A stretch of DNA of 64,000 bases, taken from a virus. The notes beneath the pieces were generated by a model. The model worked only from the letters and a program-made list of their open reading frames with translations, had not been told where the DNA came from and made no database searches. Below are positions 25,005 through 63,120 of this stretch, in pieces; position 1 is the first letter of the stretch, and the number at the start of each line of letters is the position of its first letter. The DNA lies in the IMG/VR virus record IMGVR_UViG_3300036832_001488, positions 1-64,000 of that record, one strand, 5' to 3'. Both the position numbers and the translations under genes were made by a program.

Positions 25005-25802
25005 CTATCCTTGGAAAACGAGGTCAACCATGTAGTTGACGCCCGCCTGTTGGTTAGCAGGATAGCCCAGGACTCCTGCCGTTGTATCAAACTGGCCTGC
25101 ACCGGCTGGAGCCTGGAGCACTCCGGTTGTGATCGGCGGGTTAGTGGAATTGTAAACAAAGGCCCCGTCTGGGATAAACATCGAGATGAGATACTGGGTG
25201 TTGGCCAAGATCGCGATGGGGCTTGCGAAATTCATTTGCTGCCAGCCACTGGCCGACTGGCCGCTAAAATTGACCTGACCCAGCTTTGAATGGTTGCTAA
25301 CCAGCCAGAGTGCTCCAATTTGAGTTTGGAGGGTTGAAGCCGGTGCCCGGTAATAGCGCACCGCAATCACGTTCCCAGGTATTGTTGTCTGGAAGATGAT
25401 CCCCACGTTAATGTTGGCCTGGGTGTTAGTGGGATGATCCGGCGTCAGGCTGGGTAGGAACAGCGAATAGTTCTGTACTGGCCCTCCGCCCCCTCCTACG
25501 CTACTGAATCTGTAAGCAGGACCCGCGTGACTTAAATCCAGTTTCCCGTCCACTCCGTTTAAGAAGATGGCGTCCTGGCCGACTCCTAAGCTCCCGATCC
25601 AAGCTGGTGAAAGGAGAATGTTAGGAGCCCCCGGCTGATTGGTCATGCCGGGAAGCGGGTTAGAGGTCAGCGTGAAAGGATCGAATCCTTGTTTAAGAGC
25701 CCTCACTGTGTCATGGGCACTACCGTTGCCTGCTGGAGTCAGGTAACCGGCGGCGAGCTGCTGGCCACCCAGAATAGTTAGCAAGTCCTGCAGTGTGTTC
25801 AT
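25005..25802 (-). CDS. DUF4082-like beta-sandwich virion protein
   Basis: A 265-residue protein from ATG 25802. The C-terminal half matches DUF4082: NVGIIFQTTIPGNVIAVRYY, QIGALWLVSNHSKLGQVNFS, SGWQQMNFASPIAILANTQY. This beta-sandwich module is found in secreted polysaccharide-associated proteins. The N-terminal half contains a helical start and a Gly/Asn-rich linker with a segment typical of fibre proteins (AIFLNGVDGKLDLSHAGPAY). It is likely a carbohydrate-binding tail component. Confidence 0.7.
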   Translation of the reverse strand: MNTLQDLLTILGGQQLAAGYLTPAGNGSAHDTVRALKQGFDPFTLTSNPLPGMTNQPGAPNILLSPAWIGSLGVGQDAIFLNGVDGKLDLSHAGPAYRFSSVGGGGGPVQNYSLFLPSLTPDHPTNTQANINVGIIFQTTIPGNVIAVRYYRAPASTLQTQIGALWLVSNHSKLGQVNFSGQSASGWQQMNFASPIAILANTQYLISMFIPDGAFVYNSTNPPITTGVLQAPAGAGQFDTTAGVLGYPANQQAGVNYMVDLVFQG

Positions 25803-26017
25803 TAGTTTCCTAGGCCTCCAATAACTCGGGTTGGCGTAACCACGGTGCCTAACCCGTCGATATAACTTCCAGCCGGGAAAGTGCGCCCCGGCGCGGGTGT
25901 CCCGGCAATTGGCCCGACTTCCCATCTGGTCACTGGATAGCCCCCGCTAGGTGGTGGCCAGACAGGAAAAGGCGGCAGGCCGGGTTGACCGGCTGCTGGC
26001 GTAATTTGACTAGACAT
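25802..26017 (-). CDS. Small Pro/Gly-rich protein, paralogue pair member
   Basis: A 71-residue protein that shares PPFPVWPPPSGG and a following E-x-GPI word with 26022-26372, so the two are tandem relatives. Low complexity suggests a tail linker or cement peptide. The start is 4 bases after the paralogue's stop. Confidence 0.55.
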   Translation of the reverse strand: MSSQITPAAGQPGLPPFPVWPPPSGGYPVTRWEVGPIAGTPAPGRTFPAGSYIDGLGTVVTPTRVIGGLGN

Positions 26018-27974: not shown

Positions 27975-30361
27975 TAGACAATTCCTCTCACAACGATTGA
28001 ACCGATTGCGATGTTGCCGCTAGAGAAGATAATCTGCATGGCATTAACTAGCGTTAAGCTGAAATCTTGACCTGCGAATGCCCACCGAGTAATTCTCCCG
28101 TTTGTGGTTGCGTAACCTTCCGCTTCGCCTAGCCAAGAAGCTGGCTTGGTCCCATCCGAGGGGAAAAGTCTCATACTAATTTGTCCTGAGTGATTCGCAT
28201 TTCTCATTCCAGACGAAATACGCATGTAAGTTCCGGGAGCGGCAGCAGAAAAGCCTACCGTAGTGGCCGCATTATCAAAGATTGTACTGTCCCAATAAGA
28301 CGCAATAAAAGTTGAGCCTCCATCACCGGAGAGCTTCATCTGTAAAGATGCCGCATCGGTAACCGGCATAAATCCGTAAAGATCAATGTCGAAAAGGCGG
28401 TAGCCGCTAGGTAAGAGAACCAGCTGAGTTGCTACAGCCGAAGAGATATCAATCGCGCCGATGATCACACTTCTGCTTCGCCCAAGGGTGCGCCAGTTAG
28501 CACCATCAGAAATGATCGTGCATTCTTGGCCTGGGAGAAGGAACTGGCTGGTTAATCCGTCAATCGTACCCGAGGGCGGCGTTAAGGTAATTGTTCCGGT
28601 TGTGCCGCTGATTCCCTGGTCATTACGGACTCGAACAAAGAATCCATTGGTCGGAGCGGGTAGGGTTAAGGTCCATGAGCCTCCAGTGCAAATGAAGTAT
28701 TTGCCGATATCGCCAGCAACGACGGTGTAAGCAGTATTCTGGTTTACAAAGCCAGCTGGCCCAGCTGGTATTACCAGTGGATGACAAGCATTATCCCCAC
28801 CCACATAATCGCTGATGTTGCCGCTGACCTGGGCGAGTAAGCCTGCTGCTGTGTTGTTAGCTAAGGCTAGAGAAGGAATCGAGGGATTAAGCAGGGTGAC
28901 TTGGTTACCGCTGATATTGGTGACTTGGAGGGTGCCTGAGAGCGAGACGCCTCCGGCAGTCTTTACTTCCACGTATTGCCCCAGCACCAGCCAACTCGCA
29001 TTTTGGAAGGTGACGACTACTGTTCCTCCAACTGGCGGCACGGTAAATTGAGCGCTGGTGATGGTATAAGCGTTAATTCCGGCTGCACCGGATGGCCCTT
29101 GGCTTCCCGTGGCTCCTGCTGGACCTTGGCTCCCGGTAGCGCCTGTAGCGCCAGGAGTGCCCTGTGGGCCTTGAGCGCCGACTGCCCCGGTCTGGCCAGC
29201 GGGAATAGTAAAATTAAAGACCGCCGCTGAAGGAGTGCCAGCGTTAGTGACATTGGCGTTGGTGCCGGGTGCGCCCGTACTGGTCGTTCCGGGTGCTATA
29301 GTAGCTGCGCTGCCAGCTGGGCCAGCCGCGCCAGCGGGGCCAGTGCTGCCTGTAGCGCCAGCTGGCCCCGTGCCAGTCAGAGTATTACCGCTAGGTGCAG
29401 TGGAACCCGGCGCTTGGTTTACGCCATAGCCAAGATTTTGCAGGGTCAGTTGGTTAGCACCTGAGTTAACAGCGGTGATAGCCAAGTAACCAATGGGCGA
29501 GATATAGACAATGCCGCCGACGCTGAATTGGGCCGCACCACCAGAAGCGACGTTGGCTACTGCCGTAGAATTGACGGCAGGCATCGTAAAAACCGCACTT
29601 AAGGTAGTAAAAGCACTAGCGCCCCCAGGAGGACCGGGAGGACCGGTAGCGCCAGCAGTCCCCGGAGTTCCCTGGGGGCCTTGAACCCCTTGGCTACCAG
29701 TAGCCCCGCTTGGGCCTTGATTTCCTTGAGGCCCAGAAACGCCTTGATTTCCTTGGGCCCCTTGAACCCCTTGAACCCCTTGGGCACCTTGCGCTCCCGG
29801 TGGCCCTTGATAGGGACCAGTGTCGATCCAATTAGCCCCGTTCCAAGCCCAGCCATGCCCGGTATCGCTTGTGATCCAGAGGTCACTTTCAGCGTTACCG
29901 CTAGCCGGTAGGGCGCTGCTGGTCGCAACAGTGCCTTTAGGATTCAGCGGTGGTCCCGGTGGTCCCAGTGGCCCGACTGGTCCCTGGGGCCCGATTCCGC
30001 CCGGTGGGCCGGGAAGAGAAGTCGTCGTGACTTTGTCAGGGCCAAAGCCGGTACCGGGAGGCTGATTATAATCAGTCCCGAAATTCATCACCACCATCTG
30101 GCCGACAGTGGGAGTCGAGACTACTTGATAGTACCCGGCACTGCCTCCATTGCCGTCTCCGATGACAATAGTCATCCCCGGCACAAAGCCTTGAGAGTTA
30201 ACCACCGATAAGCCGACATTCCCGTTTACTGGCGGCTGGGTCCAGGGAACTAAGACGTTAGTCGTAACGTAAACAAAGGTGATCCCGTCATAGTCAGGAT
30301 CGTCCTTTGGCCTGACTCCAGGCTGCATCGGACTAACAAAATATTGGGTGCCGCTGCTCAC
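27974..30361 (-). CDS. Large collagen-like tail fibre
   Basis: A 795-residue protein. Several blocks of Gly-X-Y triplets (for example GPQGPVGPLGPPGPP and GAQGVQGVQGAQGNQG) alternate with beta-rich modules that repeat the theme FT.PAV..TAVANVAS and LTLQNLGYGVNQAPG. The C-terminal about 200 residues form a non-repetitive head domain (GPAGFVNQNTAYTVVAGDIG onward). It is a trimeric fibre by analogy with other phage collagen-like fibres. Both ends are ATGA-coupled. Confidence 0.8.
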   Translation of the reverse strand: MSSGTQYFVSPMQPGVRPKDDPDYDGITFVYVTTNVLVPWTQPPVNGNVGLSVVNSQGFVPGMTIVIGDGNGGSAGYYQVVSTPTVGQMVVMNFGTDYNQPPGTGFGPDKVTTTSLPGPPGGIGPQGPVGPLGPPGPPLNPKGTVATSSALPASGNAESDLWITSDTGHGWAWNGANWIDTGPYQGPPGAQGAQGVQGVQGAQGNQGVSGPQGNQGPSGATGSQGVQGPQGTPGTAGATGPPGPPGGASAFTTLSAVFTMPAVNSTAVANVASGGAAQFSVGGIVYISPIGYLAITAVNSGANQLTLQNLGYGVNQAPGSTAPSGNTLTGTGPAGATGSTGPAGAAGPAGSAATIAPGTTSTGAPGTNANVTNAGTPSAAVFNFTIPAGQTGAVGAQGPQGTPGATGATGSQGPAGATGSQGPSGAAGINAYTITSAQFTVPPVGGTVVVTFQNASWLVLGQYVEVKTAGGVSLSGTLQVTNISGNQVTLLNPSIPSLALANNTAAGLLAQVSGNISDYVGGDNACHPLVIPAGPAGFVNQNTAYTVVAGDIGKYFICTGGSWTLTLPAPTNGFFVRVRNDQGISGTTGTITLTPPSGTIDGLTSQFLLPGQECTIISDGANWRTLGRSRSVIIGAIDISSAVATQLVLLPSGYRLFDIDLYGFMPVTDAASLQMKLSGDGGSTFIASYWDSTIFDNAATTVGFSAAAPGTYMRISSGMRNANHSGQISMRLFPSDGTKPASWLGEAEGYATTNGRITRWAFAGQDFSLTLVNAMQIIFSSGNIAIGSIVVRGIV

Positions 30362-31842
30362 GTTTTAATAATAAAATTGATGGCTAAGTAAGGCGGGCGA
30401 TTCTCATGTGCGCCTCCCCCTCCGGTATTATTCTGAGTAGTAGTAAGGCCGGTCCCGCTTGCACTGATACCAACAGTAAGATTGGTTTTAGCGGCACCAG
30501 TATTAGCCGTAAGAGGTGCCCCTGGATCGGATACATTAGTGCCGCCGCCCGATTCAATTAACTGGGTATTCGACTTATAGGGAACTGTGTGAGTATGGGG
30601 CGACTCGTTGACAGTAGCAGTGTGACTATGCGCTAGATCGGTGATCGGATGTGGGTGCGCAGGGATCTGCGCCGCTGTGAGAGTGACCGTGGCTGCGCCC
30701 GCTTTACTGGCTAACGGATAGCTAGCTCCAGCACCGGTCGGGAAGACGCCATTACTGAAGGGCGGCAGGTTGAAATGCGCTCCATCGACTGCCCCGAAGG
30801 TGTTTGAAATAACCGCATAAAGATTCGGAAAGGCGCTGATCGCAACGGAGCTGCCGTCACACACAAGATAGCCGCCCGGTGCTGTGGGTGTCGGCCACAT
30901 GAAGATTGCGCCGGTCGGAGCCACTCCCATAAGACCCTGCGGGCCCGCCGGACCAGCGGGCCCCACGTTTCCCATTGGACCTTGGGGGCCAGTAGCAGAG
31001 ACGTTGTTGCCGACCGGCAAAACGGTGCCTTGAGGTGCGCCGCCGGGATAACCCTGATTAACCAGGGTCAGAGAATTGTTAGTGTCGTTGGTACTCTGGA
31101 CCGAGAAGTAATCGCCCGCTTCGACATAGACGATCTGCCCTGCGCTAAAGGGACTTGAGTCCTGCACAAAGGCCGTGGCGACTGCACCTACTGCCGGAAC
31201 CGTAAAAGGTTGAGCCAGGACCGAGAAAACACTCGCCCCGGCGACTCCCTGCGGGCCCGGGGGACCACTGGGTCCCGCGATCCCTTGAGCGCCAGCGGGC
31301 CCCCGCAGGTTTGCCGCGCTGACGCTCGTCCCAGCCCCCAGCATCGTGCCGCAGGGCGTGTTAGCCGGGTCGCCGCTGTTCTGGATCTGGACCGTATTCA
31401 GATCCAGCGGCGCGCCGATCACGGTGAAGGTTCCGGCTCCGGGGAGAAAGATCAGCATCCCGGCACTCATCCAAGAGGTGTCAGTGACATGGATCGTGTA
31501 AGGCGGATCTCCAACGCACGGGATCTGGATTGCCTGCGATAAATTGCTGATCGAATTCTTGCCCGCAGGACCTTGCGGCCCTCTCCCGCCCATTAAACCC
31601 GGAGGACCGATCTGACCTTGGGGTCCGGGTAAGCCAACGCCCGCTTCGCCTTGTGGGCCAGGAGGCCCGCGCAAGACGTCCACAAAACTCCAGACAGGAG
31701 TTGCACCGGGAGGGGCCGAAGGTTGCGCTGCGTCCCAAAAGCCTCCGTCATCGAGCGTGTAGCCTAAATCGCCAACAAAGACGCTGACGCCATCGATGGG
31801 CGGCAAGAGGGAGCTGGAAGCGACCTTAAAGAAGTTGGACAC
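30358..31842 (-). CDS. Collagen-like tail protein with tail-collar domain
   Basis: A 494-residue protein, with a GTG start at 31842. Collagen-like segments (GPPGPQGEAGVGLPGPQG, GPQGPMGNVGPAGPAG) precede PTGAIFMWPTPTAPGGYLVC, DGSSVAISAFPNLYAVISNT and FNLPPFSNGVFPTGAG, the phage tail-collar domain. The C-terminus has the usual His-containing HPHPITDLAHSHTATV and ends ENRPPYLAINFIIK. This architecture is typical of short tail fibres. It is first in the minus-strand fibre operon. Confidence 0.85.
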   Translation of the reverse strand: MSNFFKVASSSLLPPIDGVSVFVGDLGYTLDDGGFWDAAQPSAPPGATPVWSFVDVLRGPPGPQGEAGVGLPGPQGQIGPPGLMGGRGPQGPAGKNSISNLSQAIQIPCVGDPPYTIHVTDTSWMSAGMLIFLPGAGTFTVIGAPLDLNTVQIQNSGDPANTPCGTMLGAGTSVSAANLRGPAGAQGIAGPSGPPGPQGVAGASVFSVLAQPFTVPAVGAVATAFVQDSSPFSAGQIVYVEAGDYFSVQSTNDTNNSLTLVNQGYPGGAPQGTVLPVGNNVSATGPQGPMGNVGPAGPAGPQGLMGVAPTGAIFMWPTPTAPGGYLVCDGSSVAISAFPNLYAVISNTFGAVDGAHFNLPPFSNGVFPTGAGASYPLASKAGAATVTLTAAQIPAHPHPITDLAHSHTATVNESPHTHTVPYKSNTQLIESGGGTNVSDPGAPLTANTGAAKTNLTVGISASGTGLTTTQNNTGGGGAHENRPPYLAINFIIKT

Positions 31843-33974: not shown

Positions 33975-34057
33975 CGGTTTTTTCTGATCTGAAAATCGCT
34001 CGCTTCGTGGTAGAACTGGCCAATGGATTTGGTGCAGTTTCGTCGCGAGTGTGGTGA
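33698..34057 (+). CDS. Overlapping unknown protein upstream of terminase
   Basis: A 119-residue protein from ATG 33698, which has a strong GGGAGAGGAG ribosome site. The C-terminal about 60 residues are convincing (YAQLFGRVYAILDRSNIPVA, VFSDLKIARFVVELANGFGA), and the N-terminal part is basic and Gly-rich. It overlaps 33615-33974 by 277 bases and the terminase start by 35. Either it is a true overlapping gene, or the downstream half of a frameshifted one. Confidence 0.45.
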   Translation: MAKSKARGRAEPDRSKDGLSDPVHHAGSGLSPEGGAGDRNAPPDTGGLHPKADLRLPWRVDDSLEVSARVSSPYAQLFGRVYAILDRSNIPVAVFSDLKIARFVVELANGFGAVSSRVW

Positions 34058-35834
34058 GGGAACTGATGAAGAGCTAGTCCGGGCCGTCTATCACATAGAC
34101 CAAACAGTCGAAAGCCCAGATCAAGCCAAGAGCTGGATCTGGGCGCTCGTTAAACGGCTCCTTGAGACTGAACGCTATGGGGCTGCGGGCCTTGTCCTTT
34201 GGGGCGAGGCCCTTTTTAATTACGGGCCCCAGGCCGTCAGGCAGGTCATCCAGAAAGTCCGCACCACTCAGAATTTGATTGTCTTAGGCGGGGCGGCTCT
34301 GGGCAAGACCTACACCATCATTTGTTACCTTTTACTGGATTGGATTCGTGACTGTGAATTCACTGAAATCAAGATCATCTCGACAACCGGTGGCCATGCG
34401 AAGTCGCAGAGTTTTTCCACCCTCCAACGCCTCTACCAAAACGCCATTATCCCACTTCCGGGGCTGGCGATGGATATGTTTGTCGGCCTTAACCCTAAGG
34501 ACCGGCACTCGGCCATCACTCTGGTGGCAATCCCACAGGGTGAGGATGGCAAAGGTGTACTCCAGGGTTTTCACCCAGTACCCAGAGCGCGCCCTCATCC
34601 CGTTTTCGGTTCTATGTCGCGCGTCCGAGCCTTTCTGGACGAGGCGGAAGAAATTCCTGCGGGCGTATGGGAAGGCGTTGCAAATCTTCTCGCGTCTGCC
34701 TGGGGTGCTGAAGCAGTCAAAGTCTGCTGTGCTACCAACCCGCGAGATGTCACGAGCAAGCTTGCGCAGCTCGCTGAACCGATGTGCGGGTGGACGCAGA
34801 TCGATCTCGATAAGGACAAAGAATGGTATTCGGCGGAGCGTTGGAACGTACTTAGACTTGATGGGGCTGATAGCGAAAACGTCCACCAACGACAGTTAGT
34901 TTTTCCGGGTTTCCTGACCTGGGACGGTTACCAGATTTACGCTCTGGAGTTAGGAGGCCAGTCCAGCCGCTACCTGACTTTCGGGCGCGGCATGTATCCC
35001 TTAAGCGCCCTCCAGAACACTCTCATCCCCTATTCACTGCTCGAACCGGTCATCGGCCAGTTCATCTTCGACGGGCGCACGGTGGGAGCCGCCGGAATCG
35101 ATCTGGCCAGTGAAGGTGGGGACCGCATCATTCTGGTAGTCGGCAAATACGGCAAAGCCATCGGCTTTCAGCCACTGCGCGGCGTGCCCATCCTTTTCAA
35201 GAAGCCGCGCTACTGTGTGCAGGTCGATCAGTACTATGATATGCCAAAGGAGAAAACGATAGCACTTGCTACCAGCCTGGAAGTGAAGTGCAAAGGCCTC
35301 AATATCCATCCTGACTGGGTGACTTGCGACCGTACCGGAGTGGGCACCGGCACCCATGATGCCATGTGCGAACAATGGAGTGGCTCAATCCGGGGAGTCA
35401 TGTGGGGCGCAGAATCGGGGCCGCGCAAGCTCCTGGCTGATGACCACGATTACGCAGTCGAGGTCTATGACGGCGTCACTACCGAGATGCACATGCGGGT
35501 GCGCAAGTTTCTGGAATTCGGGCTGCTCTGTATCCATCCCCAGGTACAGACCACCCAGCTCTTTAAGGAGCTTTCCAGCCGCCGCTTCCAGCCCTCCAGT
35601 AAAGGCCCCAGCGGCAAACCGCGCATTCGCCTGGAGCCCAAGAAAGAGTTTAAAAAGCGCCTGGGCTGGTCGCCGGATATCGGGGATGGGCTGGTGATGT
35701 TAGTTCACGGCTGCGCGCTCAACGGGCCGGAGAAAGCCTCTATGATTGGCGCTAAGCGAGCCAATCTTTTGCCCGATTCGAATATCGGCCCGCGCGAACG
35801 CACCCAATACATTGACTTCACCCAGGATCTCTAG
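34023..35834 (+). CDS. terL: Terminase large subunit
   Basis: A 603-residue protein. The ATPase domain has GGAALGKT (residues 89-96, Walker A) and FLDEAEE (204-210, Walker B with catalytic Glu), followed by CCATNP (about 235-240, coupling motif). The nuclease domain starts AAGIDLASEGGDRIILVVGK, with Asp360 in the RNase H-like metal position. This motor cuts concatemeric DNA and pumps it into the procapsid through the portal encoded at 37702. The small subunit candidate is 22 kb upstream. Confidence 0.9.
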   Translation: MDLVQFRRECGEGTDEELVRAVYHIDQTVESPDQAKSWIWALVKRLLETERYGAAGLVLWGEALFNYGPQAVRQVIQKVRTTQNLIVLGGAALGKTYTIICYLLLDWIRDCEFTEIKIISTTGGHAKSQSFSTLQRLYQNAIIPLPGLAMDMFVGLNPKDRHSAITLVAIPQGEDGKGVLQGFHPVPRARPHPVFGSMSRVRAFLDEAEEIPAGVWEGVANLLASAWGAEAVKVCCATNPRDVTSKLAQLAEPMCGWTQIDLDKDKEWYSAERWNVLRLDGADSENVHQRQLVFPGFLTWDGYQIYALELGGQSSRYLTFGRGMYPLSALQNTLIPYSLLEPVIGQFIFDGRTVGAAGIDLASEGGDRIILVVGKYGKAIGFQPLRGVPILFKKPRYCVQVDQYYDMPKEKTIALATSLEVKCKGLNIHPDWVTCDRTGVGTGTHDAMCEQWSGSIRGVMWGAESGPRKLLADDHDYAVEVYDGVTTEMHMRVRKFLEFGLLCIHPQVQTTQLFKELSSRRFQPSSKGPSGKPRIRLEPKKEFKKRLGWSPDIGDGLVMLVHGCALNGPEKASMIGAKRANLLPDSNIGPRERTQYIDFTQDL

Positions 35835-52670: not shown

Positions 52671-53963
52671 ATGCCTACTTTCCAAGGTTATATCGCTTAT
52701 GCGCCGTTTCCCGAAGGGTTTGAGGGAGACATGGATGAGACGTTCCAGCAGAGCGGCCAGCTCGCGATTATCTACATCAGCGGGAACTTCCTGACCGGCT
52801 TTTATTACCCGATTGGGACAATACCTGCCCCCACCTTGCCTACCAGTGACCAGGGCCCTATTGCCCTAAATGGCCAATGGTATTTCTGGGACCCGGTGAG
52901 CGGCCAGTACTTGCCGCAGTCTAGCTCGATCAAGCCTGCGCGCAATTATGCCAAGAACGCCATCTATCAGGTTCAGCAGTTGGGAAGCGCCTTTAATTCG
53001 CTGCCCGCCGGAGTCAATAGAACCTATGACATGGTCTTGAGCCGGGTCACCCAGTCCAATGTTTTATCGGTCGCCCTGGATGTAGGCCCAGCGGCCAGTG
53101 TCGACACAGATTATATCGGCAGCGCCATCAAATACACGGTCGGCACCACCCTGGTCCCGACTCTGGGTGCAACCGATCTTTTTGCGCACGAGCACCTGAT
53201 TGAGGGCAGTGATATTGCCGGAATTCAAGGCGAGATATTAAGCCTCTCCTTCAGTGTCAAGGTTAATCAGCCGGGGAATTATTCGGCTTACCTGACCTCT
53301 AATGGCCGGGATGCGAGCTACGTTTCCCCTTTCACGATTGCGACCGCCAATACTTATGCCCGGATCAAGATTAATAATATCCCGGCGTTACCGACCGGCA
53401 CGGGCACTTGGAACTTCGGGGAAGGCCAGACCGGGCTTTATCTAGGCGTCGTGATGGGAGTCGGTGCCCAGTATCAGACGGCGACTCCCAAGCAATGGGT
53501 GGCAGGGTTCTTTGCGGGAACGGCGGCTAACTCCAACATGCTGACCGTTACTACCAACCAAATTACGGTGACGGCGATCAAGCTCGAGTCCAGCCCCAGT
53601 GCCAGCTATTTCACCGCCAATTCTTTAGAGACCGATCTTCACGATGCAATCCGGTACTATTTTACGAGCTACGACTACCAATCGCTTACTAGCGGGGTCC
53701 AGATACCTACGGTCAGTCAAGGGACCAACCTTCAGTATTGGCGTTTCATTTTCCCGCGCCGGATGTGCAAGGTGCCAACGGTTATTCCTTACGGGGCCAT
53801 CTCCAACACGGCTGCTTTTGTCACCAACATAAGCACCTCGACCGATGTTGCCCAGGCCACGTTAGTAGCTCATCAGAAAGGTATCGTCGCTAACACTACA
53901 GCCACCAGTGCCAAGGGAGATGTATTTGGAGCAAATTTCACCGCCGATGCAAGACTCGCCTAA
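52671..53963 (+). CDS. Beta-rich tail protein, possible carbohydrate-binding
   Basis: A 430-residue protein. The middle and C-terminal parts resemble carbohydrate-binding or jelly-roll modules in tail proteins (LSLSFSVKVNQPGNYSAYLT, RNYAKNAIYQVQQLG, YWRFIFPRRMCKVPTVIPYG). The FPRRMCKVPTV word is typical of such fibre head domains. It lies 3 bases after the previous gene. Confidence 0.6.
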   Translation: MPTFQGYIAYAPFPEGFEGDMDETFQQSGQLAIIYISGNFLTGFYYPIGTIPAPTLPTSDQGPIALNGQWYFWDPVSGQYLPQSSSIKPARNYAKNAIYQVQQLGSAFNSLPAGVNRTYDMVLSRVTQSNVLSVALDVGPAASVDTDYIGSAIKYTVGTTLVPTLGATDLFAHEHLIEGSDIAGIQGEILSLSFSVKVNQPGNYSAYLTSNGRDASYVSPFTIATANTYARIKINNIPALPTGTGTWNFGEGQTGLYLGVVMGVGAQYQTATPKQWVAGFFAGTAANSNMLTVTTNQITVTAIKLESSPSASYFTANSLETDLHDAIRYYFTSYDYQSLTSGVQIPTVSQGTNLQYWRFIFPRRMCKVPTVIPYGAISNTAAFVTNISTSTDVAQATLVAHQKGIVANTTATSAKGDVFGANFTADARLA

Positions 53964-53964
53964 A

Positions 53965-54357
53965 ATGCCTGATAAAGAGGGGATGTCCCTGATCCGCATC
54001 AACAATGAAAAAGAGATGCGTAACTGGGGAGTCGACCTTCTTTCCCGCGACCTCTGGGGCGGTGATTGTCCGCGCCAGTACCCGGTTTACATCGTCTTCT
54101 ATCACGGCCAGCCGGTAGGCTATTTCCTAACTGTTCAGCAGTTTGTGGTTTACCCGGCGCTGCACCCGGAGCGGATAAGTCCACGGGAGTTTCTGAAGAT
54201 TACCCGCAGTCTGGTGAGCGAATTTAAGCGCATGGTGGGCAATCCGATCTTTATGATGTGCAAAAAAGATCAGGAGTTCGGAGCTAACAATTTTAGGCGG
54301 ATTCGGCTCAAGCGAGCCGACGAAACGGCTTATATCTACGACGAAGAGGCCCCATGA
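53965..54357 (+). CDS. GNAT-like or unknown tail-region protein
   Basis: The start is uncertain: ATG 53965 leaves a 1-base gap, ATG 53947 overlaps by 17. About 130 residues. YPVYIVFYHGQPVGYFLTVQ, then LKITRSLVSEFKRMVGNPIF, has the beta-alpha pattern of GNAT-like phage proteins that sit between tail genes. The catalytic loop is not evident. It is ATGA-coupled to the CFI-box protein. Confidence 0.5.
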   Translation: MPDKEGMSLIRINNEKEMRNWGVDLLSRDLWGGDCPRQYPVYIVFYHGQPVGYFLTVQQFVVYPALHPERISPREFLKITRSLVSEFKRMVGNPIFMMCKKDQEFGANNFRRIRLKRADETAYIYDEEAP

Positions 54358-55814
54358 GATTGTTTGATTTCATAGTATGGCTATTTGGTCCCCGCTACTT
54401 TGGTGGCGGCGGGGGCGGTGGTTCTAGTCAATTTAAGGCTCAAGGCACTCCTCCTGGCTTTGATTACCAAGCCGCCCAGGGCCTTAACCAGATGGCTATT
54501 GGCGGCGATATCCAAAGTTATGCTTTAAGTGACGCCGACTTTGCTAACCGTTATCCGGCGCTGCAGAATGCGTACAACCAGTGGCAAGCTAATCTAGGTA
54601 ACCAAGTTAACGCTGCCGGAACGGCTACCGCAGGCCTCCAGAATGTAATGGGTGGATTAGGTAACCAGATCGCGGGCCGTAACGCCACTCCGACAACGAC
54701 TGACATCAATGCGATCCGTAATGCGGCTTCGACTGCCGCTGGCGCAGTAAAGCCAATTATGGGCCTGGGAGCCCAGCAGGCCGGACTTGCTCAACCCATT
54801 GCGAACGCAGGCGCACAGATCGGCCAGATGGGCGGGCAGCTCGCCGGGATGGCTGCGACTCCTTACGCTCTGGGCCAGCAGCTGTTGCAGGAGCCGATTG
54901 ATCCTAACACCCAGCAGCAGATGATGCGGGCCGGGTTAGGAACCACCTTGGGCGCTGGGTTAGGTGCCGCCTCACTTGGCCAGGGCATGGCCGGACAAAG
55001 CGCAGCCGCGCGCCAGCTAGGCTTAAACACCGTGCAGTATGGACAAGCCATGCGGGGCGAGGCCATGGGCGACATCTCCCAAGCCGCATCGATTTTGGGC
55101 CAGGGTGGGCAGCTCTCCGGCCTTGGCGCGCAGACTCTGGGGCTAGGCTCGACGACTCTAGGCCAAGGGGCCCAGACCTTAGGGCTAGGAGCCCAGACCG
55201 CAGGTCAGGCTGGCCAACTTTCGGGTGCTGCCCAACAAGCCCAGGAACAATACGGGATGGATACAGCCCAGATGGCGAACATCTACGGCAATTTGCAGAA
55301 CCAGCAGGCCACCAATCTGATGCTCAATATGCAGACTGCCGGGAACATGTTCCAGAAGCGGCCCTTCGGGTTAGGCGGAACTAACATGGCCCAGACCGAG
55401 CTGGGGCAGGCTGGGGCTTATAATTCGTTCCAGCAGGCCAATTACGCCACCATGAATGGCATCGCCTTTAACCAAGCTCAGCTCAATGCTCAGAACCAGC
55501 AGATGGCGGCTCAGCAGCAATCGGCTACGACTGGAGCCTTGGTTTCAGCCGGTTCGACTGCAGCCATGGTTGGAGCCACTGCCGCAGGCGCGTGTTGGAT
55601 AGCGCGCGCCGCCTTTGGGGAGAATTCGCCTAAATGGCGAATATTCCGGCACTGGCTGATGAATAAAGCCCCCAGGATCGTCCGCAGAACCTACCTAGTG
55701 TATGGACCCTCCTTTGCCCCGAAAGTGCGTGCAAACAGGCTGCTAGGGGCCTTAGTGAGGGGATTTATGACCCTCGCCATTAACCGGACCACCTATGTAT
55801 GTCTACCCGCTTAG
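54354..55814 (+). CDS. Virion-like protein with C-terminal CFI-box-like domain
   Basis: A 486-residue protein. The N-terminus has a hydrophobic start (MRLFDFIVWLFGPRYFGGGG), then a long Gly/Ala/Gln-rich region with repeats such as GAQTLGLGSTTLGQGAQTLG and QAGLAQPIANAGAQIGQMGG, as in internal or ejection-type virion proteins. The last 73 residues begin CWIARAAFGENSPKWRIFRH (Cys414) and match the CFI-box C-terminal domain (C-F/W-I-A...Y/FG) by pattern. The gene ends inside the YcaO gene (16-base overlap), so the two are made together. The role of CFI boxes is not known to me. Confidence 0.7.
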   Translation: MRLFDFIVWLFGPRYFGGGGGGGSSQFKAQGTPPGFDYQAAQGLNQMAIGGDIQSYALSDADFANRYPALQNAYNQWQANLGNQVNAAGTATAGLQNVMGGLGNQIAGRNATPTTTDINAIRNAASTAAGAVKPIMGLGAQQAGLAQPIANAGAQIGQMGGQLAGMAATPYALGQQLLQEPIDPNTQQQMMRAGLGTTLGAGLGAASLGQGMAGQSAAARQLGLNTVQYGQAMRGEAMGDISQAASILGQGGQLSGLGAQTLGLGSTTLGQGAQTLGLGAQTAGQAGQLSGAAQQAQEQYGMDTAQMANIYGNLQNQQATNLMLNMQTAGNMFQKRPFGLGGTNMAQTELGQAGAYNSFQQANYATMNGIAFNQAQLNAQNQQMAAQQQSATTGALVSAGSTAAMVGATAAGACWIARAAFGENSPKWRIFRHWLMNKAPRIVRRTYLVYGPSFAPKVRANRLLGALVRGFMTLAINRTTYVCLPA

Positions 55815-57019
55815 AGTTGCGTGAAGCTTGTGCGGAGGCCCTTAACCGGCTCTCCAGAGAAGAGCTGTTAGAGAAGTTTGCGATCTCGCGGGTGGCCGAC
55901 GTGACCGGCCTGGATACTATCGGAGTGCCGGTCTTCACCACTACCAGGGCGCTTTCCCAGACCCTGTCTATCCATGCCGGTAAAGGCCTGGAGCGCAAGT
56001 TGGCACGCGCCGGAGCTATTGCCGAAGCCATTGAGTTTGAGGTGGCTGAACATCCTTTTGGGGACTTTAAACTGGCCAATAGTCTACAGTTGCCAGAGGA
56101 AGATCATCTGCCGGTAGAGGATTGTTTCCCGATCCGTGCTTCGATTGTTAACGAGATGACACCGATTGCCTGGGAAGAGGCAACTAACGTCCAGAATGGG
56201 GCCGTTAAGTTTGTTCCTAGTGATCTGATCTGGATAGCGCCCCGGTTAAAAGAGCAACCCTTCATGTATTTTCAGGTCGGCTCTAATGGGCTGGCCAGCG
56301 GTGCGACCCTGGAAGATGCCATCCTTTCTGGCCTCTATGAGATCGTGGAACGCGATGGCTGGACCATCCACACCTACATGATGGAGAACTTAGGCATTTT
56401 AGCTAACCGGATGCCGTTAGTTAGTTTGTGTCCCGAGATCGAGGAAATTGTCCGGCGCTTAGATGAGCAGAAGCTCAAACTGCATCTCTTTGACTGCACC
56501 ACCGATTATCAGGTGCCGGTCTTTGCTGCGACCATTCTGGATTTAAGCGGCAACTGTGCCGGAACCTTTGCCGGTTACGGGTGCCATCTGAATGCGGAGA
56601 GCGCCGCTCTGCGGGCGATCACTGAGGCCATCCAAGGCCGCGCCTGCTATATCTCCGGCGCGCGCGATGACATGCTTCGCCGCCAGTTTCTTCTGATGAA
56701 GCGGATGGATCAGGCGAGGCTCGACCAGATGTTTAACGAGTTGGAGCGAGGCTCTTCCATCAGCGAGTATCGCAAGGTCGAGTTCCCTGACATCAAAAGC
56801 GAATTACGTTATTTACTGAAGTTACTTAAATCCAGAGGCGTCAGCGAAGTCTTTGTCAAAGACCTGGGACAACATGCCGATTGCCTGCATGTAGTCCGGG
56901 TCTTTTCGCCCCAATGCGAGCCGCACCGGTTCGACTACTGGACTCCAGGCTTACGTTGTCTTTCCTATGCGCAGCGCAAGCTGGAAGAACTTAAGGAGGA
57001 TAAAGAATGTCCGACCTGA
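55799..57019 (+). CDS. ycaO: YcaO-domain protein (ATP-dependent backbone-modifying enzyme)
   Basis: A 406-residue protein. It has the full YcaO signature: SIHAGKGLERKLARAGAIAE (57-76) with Glu76 and Glu79, SNGLASGATLEDAILSGLYE (162-181) with Glu181, VERDGW (183-188), GYGCHLNAESAALRAITEAI (259-278) with Arg272 and Glu276, and GARDDML (287-). These Glu/Arg residues bind ATP-Mg in characterised YcaO enzymes, so it looks active. YcaO proteins phosphorylate the peptide amide oxygen to form azolines, amidines or, with TfuA, thioamides. The TfuA-like gene follows, with a 13-base overlap. Its YcaO-only form lacks an obvious E1-like domain. Codon style matches its neighbours. Confidence 0.92.
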   Translation: MSTRLELREACAEALNRLSREELLEKFAISRVADVTGLDTIGVPVFTTTRALSQTLSIHAGKGLERKLARAGAIAEAIEFEVAEHPFGDFKLANSLQLPEEDHLPVEDCFPIRASIVNEMTPIAWEEATNVQNGAVKFVPSDLIWIAPRLKEQPFMYFQVGSNGLASGATLEDAILSGLYEIVERDGWTIHTYMMENLGILANRMPLVSLCPEIEEIVRRLDEQKLKLHLFDCTTDYQVPVFAATILDLSGNCAGTFAGYGCHLNAESAALRAITEAIQGRACYISGARDDMLRRQFLLMKRMDQARLDQMFNELERGSSISEYRKVEFPDIKSELRYLLKLLKSRGVSEVFVKDLGQHADCLHVVRVFSPQCEPHRFDYWTPGLRCLSYAQRKLEELKEDKECPT

Positions 57020-58350
57020 TCCTTGTTTACCTGGGCCCGAGTCTGGAGCTGGAAAAGGCTAAAAAGATTATACCGGAGGCGATCTATCGGCCACCGGCTA
57101 GGCAAGGCGATATTGCGAGCGACGTCATTAATCTTAATCCCAACATCATTATCCTGATCGATGGGGAGTTTCGCCAGAACTTGAGCCCCTGGCACAAGGA
57201 GATCGTGTATGCGCTCCAGCATCCAGGCGTTAGATCTATTTACGGAGCCGCCTCTATTGGCGCTCTGCGTGCGGTTGAGCTGGAGTACTTGGGGATGATC
57301 GGGATCGGCAAGATCTATGAATGGTTCAGAGACGGTGTGACCGAAGACGACTCAGAGGTGGCACTTAACTATGTGCGGCAAATACGGATTAAAGACAATG
57401 ACCCGGCCTATACGGCGCTGAGTGTGCCCCTGGTTAACATTCGGGCCGGAGTCGAGCATTATCGGAAGGAATTTGCGGATAATCCTGCCGTAACCGAGTC
57501 GGTAGAGCAGTTCTTTAAAGTGATGCAGGCCACTCACTACAGCGAGCGCACGGTCGAGCTTTGTGAAGAGATGTGGGCCGGTGCCTTGGGTGTTAGTTTT
57601 CCTTGCATCCCGCAAAAAGAGTTAGACGCGGTTGAGGCCCTCTCCAACTTCTGGAACTATCTGCCGCAGGTAAAGGTCAAGCCCAGGCCCGACCATCTCT
57701 CGCACGCTTTCCAGTCTCTCTATGACCGGGACCGGCGTATCAAGGTTAACGGCCAGGCTGTCGCTCAGCAGCATATTGATAGCTACGTCCTACTTCATAA
57801 CCCTGAGTACGAACGGATTTGCTGGGACAGTGCCAACCAAGAGCTGGCCTTGATTTTGTGTAACGCCCTTTTTGTGATGGTCGATTTAAGCGAGGTCGAG
57901 ATGGAGTCGGCCCGATTCCAGAGCCGGTGCGAGATTAAATCCATTGAAGATTTTAACCATATGCTGGCTAACAACGGCTGGAGCCGAGGCGAATACGACC
58001 GGCTGATGGTGCAGAACGCGCGCATCCGCAAGCTGCAGCACACTTTGAGTTCTGCCAAGCATTCCCGGCGTAACACCTGCGCCATCCTCGACTATCTGCG
58101 CACCCACCAGGGCTTCGACTACTGGGCGGTTAAGGCGGCACAGAAAGAAGCCCAGATTGAACGGATGGGGATCGACGAGTGGCCGCTGGATTTAGAAACT
58201 TCGGCCTGGAAACTCTTAGAGGACCAGTTTGAGGCCGAAGGCCTGGAGCTGAAATCCTCCCAGGAAGCTTACCTGTTAGAAACCGGATTTAGTAATAAAC
58301 GCGAGCTGGCAGTGGCCTTAAATCGGCTCCTGGCCCTTAAGGAGGCATAA
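57007..58350 (+). CDS. tfuA: TfuA-like protein, YcaO partner
   Basis: A 447-residue protein with a strong AAGGAGG ribosome site inside the end of ycaO. The N-terminal about 210 residues are the TfuA domain: LVYLGPSLELEKAKKII (6-22), PPARQGDI (29-36), LIDGEF (50-55), WHKEIVYAL (62-70), YGAASIGALRAVELEYLGMI (79-98), and DDSEVALNYV (114-123). The rest (about 240-447) is a helical extension with no recognised domain, containing YDRDRRIKVNGQ, CEIKSIEDFNHMLANNG and helices to the end. TfuA homologues assist YcaO in thioamidation, for instance in archaeal McrA and in thioamidated RiPPs. Confidence 0.9.
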   Translation: MSDLILVYLGPSLELEKAKKIIPEAIYRPPARQGDIASDVINLNPNIIILIDGEFRQNLSPWHKEIVYALQHPGVRSIYGAASIGALRAVELEYLGMIGIGKIYEWFRDGVTEDDSEVALNYVRQIRIKDNDPAYTALSVPLVNIRAGVEHYRKEFADNPAVTESVEQFFKVMQATHYSERTVELCEEMWAGALGVSFPCIPQKELDAVEALSNFWNYLPQVKVKPRPDHLSHAFQSLYDRDRRIKVNGQAVAQQHIDSYVLLHNPEYERICWDSANQELALILCNALFVMVDLSEVEMESARFQSRCEIKSIEDFNHMLANNGWSRGEYDRLMVQNARIRKLQHTLSSAKHSRRNTCAILDYLRTHQGFDYWAVKAAQKEAQIERMGIDEWPLDLETSAWKLLEDQFEAEGLELKSSQEAYLLETGFSNKRELAVALNRLLALKEA

Positions 58351-58352
58351 TT

Positions 58353-60380
58353 ATGGCGGCGACGACGAATGCCTTTAATAACACGAATCAGAATCAATTC
58401 GGCGGCATGAATTTTACTGACTGGAGCCAAGTAGCTGACATGTTCGGCACTTCGGTCGTTCAAGCCCTCCAGCAGAATAATGTGGCCCTTAATCAGGTAG
58501 GCTCAGTCATCGGCAAGCTGGGCATAGCTCAGCAAACTAGTTCGGGCACCTCAGGCCAGTTCGGCGCGTCTAATCCGCAAAATATTTCTTCCGGTTTCAC
58601 CTTAGCCGATGCGATTAACCAGCAGCAAGGCGGCAGCGGCAGCGCTCAGCAAAGCAATTCGGGCACCATCAATATGACCGGCTGGCAGAACCCGGACTAC
58701 GCAACTAACCTGTTAGGCGCGCAAGCTCTGGAGGCCGTGGGGCTTAATCCCAGTAAGACCATGACGGTTAATCCACAGCCCTCGGCGGTTACTTCCAGTC
58801 AAGATTTTGCTAAAAGCGGCGTATCTAGTGTTGCCGGGCCGCAAACCTTCGACATCAGCCAAGCGCCCATGCCGAATCCCAATCCGAGTATCGGGAGCGT
58901 CTTTGGTGCGGTCAAGCCGCTTAACCCAACGGTCAGTGGCCCGATGACACAACAGCCCGCCAACACCAATCCTAATTGGGCGAATTGGAGTACGGCGCAG
59001 CAGAACGCCTACATGAGGCAGCAGGGCATGCATCCCGCTGAGAGAGCCACCTATTCGCAGGAGCAGAATCAAATCCAACAGAATATAAAACAGGGCAATT
59101 ACCTTAACCCGACTGTCCAGGCGACCGGAGCCCAGGCGACCCAGCCTCAGGCGTTTGCGACTCCTCCACCAATTCCGACTATCCAGACACCTCAGGTTTC
59201 TTCTCAGGTTCCGGCTAGCACTGGGACTCTTCCGCAGCCTCCGGCAGCGCCAGGAAATGCTATTGCTGGATCGCCTTTTGGGCCGATCTCTAGTCTTTCA
59301 CCGAGTGCAACACCTCCAGGGCCATCCAGTATGCCCCCTGGATACGGGACGGCGATTAAACATATGGCGGGAGGCGGCTCGGTAGGCGGCACCGACACGA
59401 TCCCAGCGATGCTGACTCCAGGCGAATACGTGATTAACCGGGATGCGGCCCAACAGATCGGGCGCGGACGTTTAGACCAGCTTAATGCCGAAGGTGGTCG
59501 CCTTCATATGCAGGATGGCGGCTCAATTCCTGGCGCTAGTCCTTCCTATGGCTATTCACCAGGGGCAGATGCCCAGAGCTTTGCTTTCCAGCAGCTCTCA
59601 CCACAAGAACAAGTTGTCCTTCAAGGAGGCGGGGCGGCGGGACAACGGGTTCAGCAGAAATTTAATCAACTGGTTAACAACTATCAGGGCAGTTCTGGAA
59701 CTCCTACTCCGATGTCGGCACAGATGGGCATGAACAACCCCGCTGCTACTACTGCCCAGGTTCATCCCACGGCACCGGCTGCGCCTGCAGGCCAGCCGCA
59801 GCAGCAGAAACCAGCCGGTTATTCCGGCTCGCTCGACCAATGGTTAGCTCAATATGGACATACGCCGCAGGGCCAAGCCTATATTGCGCAGAATGGGAAT
59901 GTTAATGAGGTGCAGCGCTATCTGCAAAATCTAACCACTCCTCAGACGACCCCGGCGACCTCCCCGGCGACCTCCATGCCTGCTTACACCGACACTGCCC
60001 CGCGAGCTAGCCTCGTCTCGGCTCCGGCAGGCTACGGTGCAGCTCCGCGAGCTGAACTAGTTGGCTTACCGGCAGGCCAAGGCGAAGCCTATGACCCGAA
60101 GACCTACGGCATCAATACTGGAGCCAGTGGGGCGGCAGGAATGGCCGGTAACATCGCTGGCGCTATTGGGCAAATCGCCCAAGCTTTTACGAAAGGTGCC
60201 GGGGCTAGCCAGCCATACAAGTGGATTCAGAGCGCGATTCCCAATCCTGCCGATCTTAAAAGCCAGACTCCTGATATCGTCTTGCAGGGCCATCAAGTTG
60301 GTAAACCTAATACACCGGGAGGCTATGTCCTTATGGCCCAGCCAAATGATCAGCCCAGGGAAGACACCTATCTGAGTTAA
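58353..60380 (+). CDS. Large Gln/Pro-rich virion protein with tape-measure-like motif
   Basis: A 675-residue protein with a strong AAGGAGG site just upstream. It is mostly low-complexity Gln/Pro/Ser/Asn. It has the word GGSVGGTDTIPAMLTPGEYV (about 343-), resembling the GG...G.D.VPA.LTPGE.V motif found near the ends of tape-measure and internal virion proteins. The C-terminal region has TAPRASLVSAPAGYG and APRAELVGLPAG, the latter shared with the membrane protein at 7689-8066. It is presumably an ejected or internal structural protein. Confidence 0.65.
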   Translation: MAATTNAFNNTNQNQFGGMNFTDWSQVADMFGTSVVQALQQNNVALNQVGSVIGKLGIAQQTSSGTSGQFGASNPQNISSGFTLADAINQQQGGSGSAQQSNSGTINMTGWQNPDYATNLLGAQALEAVGLNPSKTMTVNPQPSAVTSSQDFAKSGVSSVAGPQTFDISQAPMPNPNPSIGSVFGAVKPLNPTVSGPMTQQPANTNPNWANWSTAQQNAYMRQQGMHPAERATYSQEQNQIQQNIKQGNYLNPTVQATGAQATQPQAFATPPPIPTIQTPQVSSQVPASTGTLPQPPAAPGNAIAGSPFGPISSLSPSATPPGPSSMPPGYGTAIKHMAGGGSVGGTDTIPAMLTPGEYVINRDAAQQIGRGRLDQLNAEGGRLHMQDGGSIPGASPSYGYSPGADAQSFAFQQLSPQEQVVLQGGGAAGQRVQQKFNQLVNNYQGSSGTPTPMSAQMGMNNPAATTAQVHPTAPAAPAGQPQQQKPAGYSGSLDQWLAQYGHTPQGQAYIAQNGNVNEVQRYLQNLTTPQTTPATSPATSMPAYTDTAPRASLVSAPAGYGAAPRAELVGLPAGQGEAYDPKTYGINTGASGAAGMAGNIAGAIGQIAQAFTKGAGASQPYKWIQSAIPNPADLKSQTPDIVLQGHQVGKPNTPGGYVLMAQPNDQPREDTYLS

Positions 60381-60393
60381 CATCCTTACGCAT

Positions 60394-63120
60394 ATGCCAG
60401 GAGAAGAAACTAAACACGAACCGGCTGGAATACAGACCCAAGGTCTTTATAACCCTTCTGTTACCCAGCTTCATTTTACTCCGGTGCAGTATGCCAACTA
60501 TGGACCGATGCTCCAGGCAATCGAGTCAGCTGGGTCCAACATTCTGCATTACATGAATCCATCGACTATCGCCAAGATGAAGATGGATGTGGCCAGCTCT
60601 GCTGCTGGTAGACAGTTCTTGGCTCAGGCCACCAAGAACCAATATCTTATGGCAAGCCAGGGCTATGTGCAGGGAGGACAGTTTGGGCTGCAGCCCGCTT
60701 ATGAGAACCCACTCTTGCGTCAAAAGCTGGCTGGCCCATTTATTAAACAAAACGCCAATGACGGCAAGACTGAGGTTGATCCGAATTCCGTCAACCCTCC
60801 CCAGCAGAGCGGAAATACTAATAACACTTCCAACACAGCCAATAATCCTAACCCTCCGGCCTCTAACGTGCAGCCATGGTGGGGGGGGCAGGTTAGGACG
60901 GGAGACGTCAATACTGATGCCTTGACCAATCCTGACTATTCTCAAATCGTGCCTCGCCCAGGCTATGCCACCGGTTACCAATCTGGCGGCGAAGTGGAAG
61001 CTCAAGATCAGTCAACGGTGCAGCAGCAGCCTACGAATTATTTCTCTTCCGCTAATGCCATTCCGCCCCCGCCGATTCCAGCTGTTCAGCAATCGCCTCA
61101 AGATCAGAGATTGTCTTCCACTCTCCCTGCCCATATCCCGTATTCGCCCGAAGCCCAGGCTGGGGCTTTTGCTCCGCAGCAGGGTGTTGGCGAGCTGAGT
61201 CCAGAGGTGTTAGCCCGTCAGCAGGCTCAGCGCCAGCTTGAACAACAGAATTTAATCAGTTGGCAGAATCAGAATGTGGGGAGCCCCTTGAGCGCCGAGG
61301 AAGCGAGGAATTGGGCGCGCACTAGTCTCGATACCGATATTAACCGCGCGGTTTACCTGCCGCAGGGTGGCCCGCCTGGACAGGGTGGCCAGCGCGAACC
61401 GGCTTATGCTTTCTATGGGAAAAAAGGTGGCACTAACATCGTGCCCATTAGCCAGATGATAAAAGCTGGGGCTGGCCCCTTGATCGCAGCCCAAAACGCC
61501 AGCCAAACCCTAAATCACAACGAGCAAAACCAGCCACAGCAAAACCAACCGCAACCCGGCCAGCCTGCCGGAGCAACGCCTCCCTGGACCTCTTCAGGAC
61601 AAAACCCTCCCACAAGTCCAATGCAGCCGGTGCCTGGGACTAATCCTAATGGCGTTCAACCCATACCGAATGCACAGCCTCCTGGGAATGGTCCGCTCAC
61701 GGCTGGGATGCCCCCAGCGGCTCCCGGCGGGACGACGCCCGGTGCTCAAGTGCCCCAACTACCGGGCGGCGGAACTAACTGGGGCGCAATACCGGGGCAA
61801 TTACCGAATGACGTGTTTAACCAGCGGGTGGCAGCGGCAACTAACACCGCTCAGACCGGGGGCCCATCACTTGGCCAGCTCTACGCCAGCACTAACAATC
61901 CAGCTGCCGCTGTAAGCCAGGACTTTGTCAAGGCTAACACCGGAGCAACCGCAGAAGATATCGCCCAGGCTAAAGCCAATCTTCAATCTAGACTCTCTAG
62001 CGGAGATTCTACAGTAAATCGGGACGCCGATGGCAACCCGTCCCTAGGCAGGCTCGGTGATTTTCAGTATTACCAATCCGATAATGGTAAGGGATTAGCC
62101 TATGCTGATCGCGATGGTGAGGGCGGTTTTTACCGGGAGCGGCTCTGGGAAGGCGACACTCAGTGGAAACCTATCCTGCCCAATGCCAATCAAGCCCGCC
62201 AGGATTTATTAAACACACAGTACGGCAAGACGCTTGGCATTCAGAAAATCAGTCAGATGAACGCGCAGCAGCTCTCTGATGCGCTCTACAGTGATTACTA
62301 CATACACAGCATCTTGCCAAGCATGCCCAACTTGGAGCCTGGGCAAGCCACCAAGATAGAAAATTCCTATTATAAGATCTTGAGCGGCAACCGGTTGATC
62401 CATGCTTTAGAGGGCCAAGATCCAGGGGATTTCAACTATTCCGCGCAGGGCGTCAACTTAGCCAATCGCGCTGGGCAAGGTCTTTTTTCAAAAAACCCGC
62501 AGGGGCCGATCCAGCAGGTCGGAAATGCTCTGTCCTCACTACTGGGACTTGCAGCTGGCCCCAAGAAGGAAAACGACCGGCTAACCTTTGTCCAACAACA
62601 GGAAGCTAGCTTAATCAACCGGATGCATAATAAACCGGAAGGTTCCGAGATAAATCCTTTGGACTGGGTAGCTGGCGACAACGAGCTAGGTGGGATCGGC
62701 ACCGGCAGTGCTAATGCTCTGGATGCTTTAAAGAGGAAAGTTAGCGGGTGGCAGACAGAGTGGAATAACGACATGTTCGCAGCCAGGGCTAATAAGTCGC
62801 GCATGCCCGGTGCCTGGAACGATCTCATGAACGATTTCAATGCTGGGAAACCTTGGTATGATCCGCAGGATACCTATGGTCCCGGCAGGAAACAGCCCAA
62901 CGAGATCGGTCCATTAGCAGCGGCGGATGCTGCCCATACAACGCTGGCTCCGCGTGTAACCAATAGTCCTGCGCCTCCAGCTCCTGGCGCAGGCAGACCT
63001 ACTCAGGGCGCGGGTTCCAGCCGCGACAATCCGATAGTTGTGCATAGCGATGATCAATTTAACAGTCTGCCACAAGGCACGCACTGGAGGGATGAACAAG
63101 GCAACGAGGGACAAAAGTGA
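60394..63120 (+). CDS. Large Gln/Pro/Asn-rich internal virion protein
   Basis: A 908-residue protein. The N-terminal third is helical then Asn/Pro-rich, and the centre has long Gln/Pro/Gly tracts. A C-terminal alpha/beta part includes NLEPGQATKIENSYYKILSG and DYYIHSILPSMPNLEPGQAT. It resembles ejection/internal core proteins in size and composition (T7 gp15/16 analogues) but I see no lytic motif. It lies 13 bases after the preceding gene. Confidence 0.6.
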   Translation: MPGEETKHEPAGIQTQGLYNPSVTQLHFTPVQYANYGPMLQAIESAGSNILHYMNPSTIAKMKMDVASSAAGRQFLAQATKNQYLMASQGYVQGGQFGLQPAYENPLLRQKLAGPFIKQNANDGKTEVDPNSVNPPQQSGNTNNTSNTANNPNPPASNVQPWWGGQVRTGDVNTDALTNPDYSQIVPRPGYATGYQSGGEVEAQDQSTVQQQPTNYFSSANAIPPPPIPAVQQSPQDQRLSSTLPAHIPYSPEAQAGAFAPQQGVGELSPEVLARQQAQRQLEQQNLISWQNQNVGSPLSAEEARNWARTSLDTDINRAVYLPQGGPPGQGGQREPAYAFYGKKGGTNIVPISQMIKAGAGPLIAAQNASQTLNHNEQNQPQQNQPQPGQPAGATPPWTSSGQNPPTSPMQPVPGTNPNGVQPIPNAQPPGNGPLTAGMPPAAPGGTTPGAQVPQLPGGGTNWGAIPGQLPNDVFNQRVAAATNTAQTGGPSLGQLYASTNNPAAAVSQDFVKANTGATAEDIAQAKANLQSRLSSGDSTVNRDADGNPSLGRLGDFQYYQSDNGKGLAYADRDGEGGFYRERLWEGDTQWKPILPNANQARQDLLNTQYGKTLGIQKISQMNAQQLSDALYSDYYIHSILPSMPNLEPGQATKIENSYYKILSGNRLIHALEGQDPGDFNYSAQGVNLANRAGQGLFSKNPQGPIQQVGNALSSLLGLAAGPKKENDRLTFVQQQEASLINRMHNKPEGSEINPLDWVAGDNELGGIGTGSANALDALKRKVSGWQTEWNNDMFAARANKSRMPGAWNDLMNDFNAGKPWYDPQDTYGPGRKQPNEIGPLAAADAAHTTLAPRVTNSPAPPAPGAGRPTQGAGSSRDNPIVVHSDDQFNSLPQGTHWRDEQGNEGQK

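Follow-up and report, generated by a model that had tools for sequence, protein, structure and literature searches.

A virus-encoded YcaO-TfuA pair behind a virion gene: a candidate phage module for protein thioamidation

YcaO enzymes make azolines or thioamides (PMC5589413), and TfuA reportedly hydrolyses thiocarboxylated ThiS and hands the sulfide to YcaO (PMC8153245, PMC13063428). In a 64,000-nucleotide stretch of viral DNA (the window; positions 1 to 64,000 of the 76,914 bp IMG/VR record IMGVR_UViG_3300036832_001488) genes for both proteins lie in tandem among virion genes, which raises the question what such a pair would modify in a phage, and by which chemistry. We propose that the phage uses it as a module for thioamidating the protein encoded directly upstream, probably a DNA-ejection protein, and we give this reading, built on sequence comparison and structure prediction, a probability of roughly 0.55. 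The genes and domains concerned are the following.

54354-55814, + strand: Gly/Ala/Gln-rich virion protein of 486 amino acids, directly upstream of YcaO; proposed substrate
55593-55811, + strand: C-terminal Cys domain of this upstream protein, CWIARAAFG....W..FRHWL..AP.., with invariant Cys414
55799-57019, + strand: YcaO, predicted adenosine triphosphate (ATP)-dependent amide-activating enzyme of the thioamidation type, 406 amino acids (profiles, structure match, motif residues)
57007-57663, + strand: TfuA domain, residues 1-219, with the fold of 6xp8 (profile and model)
57664-58350, + strand: helical extension at the C-terminus of TfuA (residues 220-447), predicted by the model and absent from Pfam

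The original prediction, made from the letters of the window, described an intact pair with diagnostic motifs, to be doubted if the ATP site were missing; the pair is intact and its nucleotide-site residues are conserved. Both open reading frames (ORFs) run uninterrupted on the + strand (55799-57019 and 57007-58350) in an ORF check of the window. PF02624 matches YcaO over profile positions 1-324 of 325 with E 4.9e-59 and 200.7 bits (curated cut-off 25.7), which places the protein in the YcaO superfamily. Its top NCBIfam match is TIGR03266, the McrA-glycine thioamidation YcaO (E 2.7e-54), at 184.6 of the 365 bits of the curated cut-off and hence short of McrA equivalog status; TIGR03604 likewise matches, NF040716 does so weakly (E 2.5e-13), and the closest solved structure is the MJ1094 YcaO 6pe3 (E 3e-32). 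The residues E..E, E..ERD and R...E..Q.R make up the conserved nucleotide/Mg site of YcaO proteins. This pattern is present in the phage protein, which has G61, K62, E76, E79, N163, G164, E181, E184, R185, D186, R272, E276, Q279 and R281, and all 14 residues are unchanged across 20 viral YcaOs with identities down to 27%.

TfuA is assigned to its family by both profile and fold. PF07812 matches it with E 5e-29 and 100.9 bits (cut-off 30), and the top NCBIfam match is NF033432, the McrA-glycine thioamidation family (E 2.3e-41), again below the curated cut-off for an equivalog (141.5 of 235.2 bits). The closest solved structure is the Methanosarcina acetivorans TfuA 6xp8 (E 6e-24), with which an AlphaFold model built from 17 diverse viral sequences (predicted local distance difference test score 82.5) agrees at a Foldseek E of 2.5e-12 and a superposition Z of 25.1, with a root-mean-square deviation of 2.5 Å over 202 residues. 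The model carries a helical extension of about 230 residues, which short viral TfuAs (L015, L016, L184) do not have. TfuAs of similar length, extended as at 57664-58350, occur in cells, e.g. in Azospirillum and Parachlamydiales, and also in some other viruses. Over residues 269-350 of the extension the fold search gave a SurA-like chaperone as the sole match (Z 6.9), within noise for helical parts.

As to the chemistry, backbone thioamidation is favoured because of the placement of both proteins with TIGR03266 and NF033432, the constant presence of TfuA, and a gene for a ThiS-like protein ending in GG that separates YcaO from TfuA in nine sister loci. In one of these (L228) it has 88 amino acids, ends in AFAGG and matches ThiS with E 6.8e-10.

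L228:3323-3589: ThiS-like gene; found in the same place in L172, L178, L185, L192, L193, L200, L214 and L236

The original prediction had seen no ThiF-like partner near the pair; the sulfur carrier ThiS is absent from the genome of the window phage and present in its sister viruses. Because the window genome has no ThiS, the phage would presumably draw on that of its host. Two other viral loci (L210 and L229) have genes for small Cys-rich, zinc-ribbon-like proteins in the space between YcaO and TfuA.

As substrate the upstream protein is the foremost candidate, since the pair sits directly behind its gene in a fixed and coupled arrangement. In the window YcaO shares its first 16 nucleotides with the upstream virion gene and TfuA its first 13 with YcaO, and the arrangement AAGGAGG-N7-ATG occurs at only two sites in the 64 kb, before TfuA and before the next gene, with 0.08 expected. 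From these overlaps and Shine-Dalgarno sites the pair is predicted, as had been proposed, to be translationally coupled to the virion genes around it.

56993-57009, + strand: Shine-Dalgarno sequence AAGGAGG with the TfuA start ATG (motif scan)
58339-58355, + strand: Shine-Dalgarno sequence AAGGAGG with the start of the next virion gene (motif scan)

The same arrangement recurs widely. A YcaO-motif scan (100 stretches), made blind to neighbouring genes, and a TfuA-motif scan of the 2.9 million viral contigs of IMG/VR turned up 85 distinct YcaO variants, which group into 21 clusters at 60% identity. All variants except two (L209 and L237, other YcaOs without TfuA) are of the TfuA type, 83 in number, and TfuA lies next to YcaO in 72/72 TfuA-type variants whose contig continues. 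Close relatives of the window phage share the same block, and many unrelated phages have the pair as well; conservation in related phages, which the original prediction had named as a check, is thereby observed. Its statement that YcaO-TfuA pairs are cellular has to be given up, as dozens of viral contigs have them and the window phage is not unusual in this. A virion protein with the Cys domain is encoded directly upstream of YcaO, on the same strand, in 69/80 variants with upstream sequence and in 13/19 TfuA-type YcaO clusters (60% identity). Most YcaO starts overlap the Cys-domain gene, and nearly all lie at most about 40 nucleotides from its stop. Among 30 representatives the upstream gene belongs to the same homology group in 28, and only YcaO, TfuA and this virion protein are common across the clades.

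Among cellular YcaO-TfuA sequences the viral YcaOs appear to represent at least two lineages; their closest cellular relatives are at most about 34-35% identical. In a maximum-likelihood tree 12 representatives, that of the window among them, form one clade and 7 form another, and L182 sits among cellular sequences in one tree; a single viral clade was rejected with p 0.021 after removal of long branches. Because both large clades and L182 have a Cys-domain neighbour, the adjacency probably either has several origins or survived very long divergence. Furthermore, the pair entered or left the space between two virion genes cleanly, since in three loci (L188, L174, L206) the gene after TfuA has a homologue (E down to 9e-36) that, in phages without YcaO, stands immediately behind the Cys-domain gene. 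An insertion hot spot was considered as a cause of the adjacency and set aside: in 99 YcaO-negative loci the gene following the Cys-domain gene falls mostly into two linked groups (57 and 15; single-linkage grouping, with partly low-complexity sequences), and cases of clean replacement occur.

Several loci depart from the usual pair. The TfuA-less YcaO of L237 directly follows an ORF resembling peptide deformylase (L237:3191-4555 and L237:4579-5040 for the two genes). In two Prochlorococcus single-cell genomes (L255 and L286) YcaO and TfuA stand in reversed order, TfuA first, and tandem YcaO genes occur in Sphingomonas psychrolutea (L260) and an alphaproteobacterial genome bin (L265), of which only the bin has a visible TfuA in the stretch examined.

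The Cys domain of the upstream protein comprises about 70 residues of the pattern C-x-x-A-R-x-x-Y/F-G...W..FR.W (CWVAR..YG...FR.W) and comes directly after an Ala-rich hydrophobic stretch. A relative without YcaO and with the same C-terminal domain (L126) matches phrog_4287, 'DNA ejection protein', with E 3.1e-12; the upstream protein of the window itself has no PHROG match. From this relative and from its position among large virion genes, the upstream protein is probably a DNA-ejection, i.e. internal virion, protein. The domain was found beside none of 80 cellular YcaO loci and in none of 7 whole cellular genomes; in a search for prophages among 385 genomes of the class of the Azospirillum locus L245 it was present in two, with no YcaO in the short stretch taken. 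With the sequence CxVAREVYG it also ends otherwise dissimilar virion proteins of environmental phages (at least 120 stretches, including L037-L155, and phage HMO-2011). In seven variants the virion protein of the same group stops with the Ala-rich stretch, at the very point at which a Cys domain would follow. The domain-less clusters, five in number, look as if an end piece had been removable (L210:10695-11327, L169:11639-12727, L241:3893-5011, L243:1442-2260, L235:4255-5004). Readthrough or recoding at the Cys position was rejected, as a six-frame search that ignored stops found no domain past the truncated proteins. A weaker sign in favour of the upstream protein as substrate is the residue after CWVAR, which is Glu in 26/31 YcaO-negative clusters vs 6/22 YcaO-positive ones, the latter mostly with Ala (Fisher p 5e-5 at 60% clustering).

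Taken together, the module may work as follows. Late in infection YcaO would activate a backbone amide in a protein at the expense of ATP. A thiocarboxylated carrier of the ThiS type, supplied by the host for this phage and by the virus itself in the sister viruses, would give up sulfide through TfuA, and YcaO would install the sulfide as a thioamide, a gain of 15.98 Da. The likeliest substrate would be the co-translated upstream virion protein (54354-55814), modified in or near its C-terminal segment with the Ala-rich stretch and the Cys domain; the site could also lie within the Ala-rich segment itself or elsewhere in the protein. If this protein is ejected with the DNA, as is probable, a thioamide could change how it folds, how stable it is or how it enters the membrane while the genome is delivered. 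Chemistry, substrate, site and benefit are all inferred from sequence.

A number of observations weigh against this proposal. The adjacency is circumstantial evidence and, like the two-clade result with its p of 0.021 only, comes from related phages that are not independent of each other, and the ejection identity comes from synteny plus one PHROG match. Five YcaO-TfuA clusters keep the pair without the Cys domain, which also speaks against that domain as the exact site. Conversely, a strict motif finds the domain in at least 120 viral contigs, nearly all of the matches listed being YcaO-negative; because it is so widespread without YcaO, it does not appear to need modification. The Glu difference after CWVAR weakens to p 0.07 at 50% clustering. 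The missing ThiS of the window phage record belongs here too, and so does the result that none of 50,697 isolate phage records has the pair, their only YcaO match being the housekeeping enzyme of E. coli, in the record of a prophage.

As the main rival, the module would thioamidate some other virion protein or a protein of the host, such as uL16 of the ribosome or another component of translation, and its position would serve only for late expression. E. coli YcaO thioamidates uL16 by fold recognition (PMC13063428), which makes large folded substrates possible, and some viral pairs have no Cys domain upstream; in L195, L204 and L186 the pair does not stand behind the upstream virion gene at all, with the Cys domain elsewhere in the record in L195. 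We nevertheless consider such a target unlikely, as late expression needs no fixed, overlapping position behind one virion family in at least two YcaO lineages, and the YcaOs that modify uL16 reportedly have no TfuA close by (PMC13063428). The original prediction of a virion or a host ribosomal protein as target is in this way narrowed to the upstream virion protein by the constant adjacency, with the host protein kept as a rival. A different product, a thiazoline formed when the invariant Cys closes a ring with the residue before it (-18 Da), would agree with common YcaO chemistry, the TIGR03604 match and the place of that Cys in a C-terminal domain. It is improbable, however, given that TfuA accompanies every TfuA-type viral YcaO whose contig continues and ThiS one subgroup, while external sulfur has no role in azoline formation; moreover, the Cys is equally invariant in YcaO-negative phages, and five clusters dispense with its domain.

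Known bacterial YcaO-TfuA pairs make thioamidated ribosomally synthesized and post-translationally modified peptides (RiPPs) (PMC8120280), and the viral pair might likewise make a RiPP-like peptide from an unseen precursor, directed against hosts or rivals. In line with the original prediction, which saw no RiPP precursor nearby, no small ORF family is common to the viral clades in the 30 representatives, although a precursor peculiar to one phage could escape this comparison. The pair does not qualify as a thioamidated RiPP cluster, for which a precursor gene would stand next to it, and it lies inside a virion operon; we regard this explanation as slightly more improbable than a thiazoline. 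Finally, that the enzymes are no longer catalytic, or form a passenger cassette without a stable role, is the least probable of all, with nucleotide-site residues invariant at 27% identity and an adjacency kept over the long term. Thioamidation of the upstream virion protein remains the reading that we prefer.

The record is viral, with a terminase-like gene at 34023-35834 (phrog_2), collar and collagen tail-fibre genes and a virion-type ORF of 2810 amino acids. Two collagen-repeat tail-fibre genes lie at 27977-31842 on the - strand, one of them with a collar domain, and near them a DUF4082 protein (Pfam E 2e-25) is encoded at 25008-25925, also on the - strand. The remaining genes around the pair are listed below; a relative of the first stands at the same place in 12/30 representative YcaO-TfuA phages.

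53908-54357, + strand: small virion-operon gene, 149 amino acids, no family match
58353-60380, + strand: downstream virion-type gene, 675 amino acids, with a short motif in common with tape-measure-type proteins
60394-63120, + strand: downstream virion-type gene, 908 amino acids
63121-64000, + strand: start of the virion-type gene of 2810 amino acids, which extends to base 71553 of the record

Apart from some RiPPs, only very few proteins (McrA, uL16) are known to carry backbone thioamides. If the proposal is true, protein thioamidation extends to virions, with a new substrate class and a prediction of +15.98 Da on one named protein, and becomes linked to genome ejection. A modified Cys domain would offer a way into the role of this domain, which environmental phages commonly carry. 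It is about an even chance that several tailed-phage lineages recruited, more than once, a complete module (YcaO, TfuA, sometimes ThiS) for their own Cys-domain DNA-ejection protein, which would be the first virus-encoded thioamidation and the first virion thioamide. Our literature search, with subscription papers and most preprints outside it, found no paper on a phage YcaO-TfuA.

Among known systems, the virion side of the locus resembles that of Puniceispirillum phage HMO-2011, whose gene phage1322_25 (L036:10102-12222) encodes a virion-operon protein with the same C-terminal Cys domain; unlike the window phage, no YcaO or TfuA was found in that record. The Cys domain may further be a distant relative of CFI-box-CTERM (NF041770), which is alike in its pattern, with Cys at the start, and in its position at the protein C-terminus (E 0.0041), whereas the upstream protein scores below the cut-off for membership (16.9 of 40 bits). 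We know of no tie between the CFI-box-CTERM domain and YcaO. For the enzymes, the nearest counterpart is the YcaO/TfuA system for McrA-glycine thioamidation of methanogens, with the same best NCBIfam families, adjacent genes and the TfuA fold (Z 25), and with a large protein instead of a leader peptide as substrate (PMC5589413). The phage pair differs from it in falling below both curated cut-offs, in being virus-encoded without McrA, and in the 230-residue helical extension of TfuA. Thioamitide/thioviridamide-type RiPP pairs use the same two tandem enzymes, both needed for thioamidation (PMC8153245), whereas the phage pair lies inside a virion operon with no precursor, RiPP tailoring or export genes seen. 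E. coli YcaO also acts on a folded non-RiPP protein, uL16 (PMC13063428), but does so without TfuA, whereas the viral pair always has TfuA where the contig continues and matches NF040716 only weakly. Against these systems, the phage pair would be of a known enzymatic kind, here virus-encoded and with a probable virion substrate.

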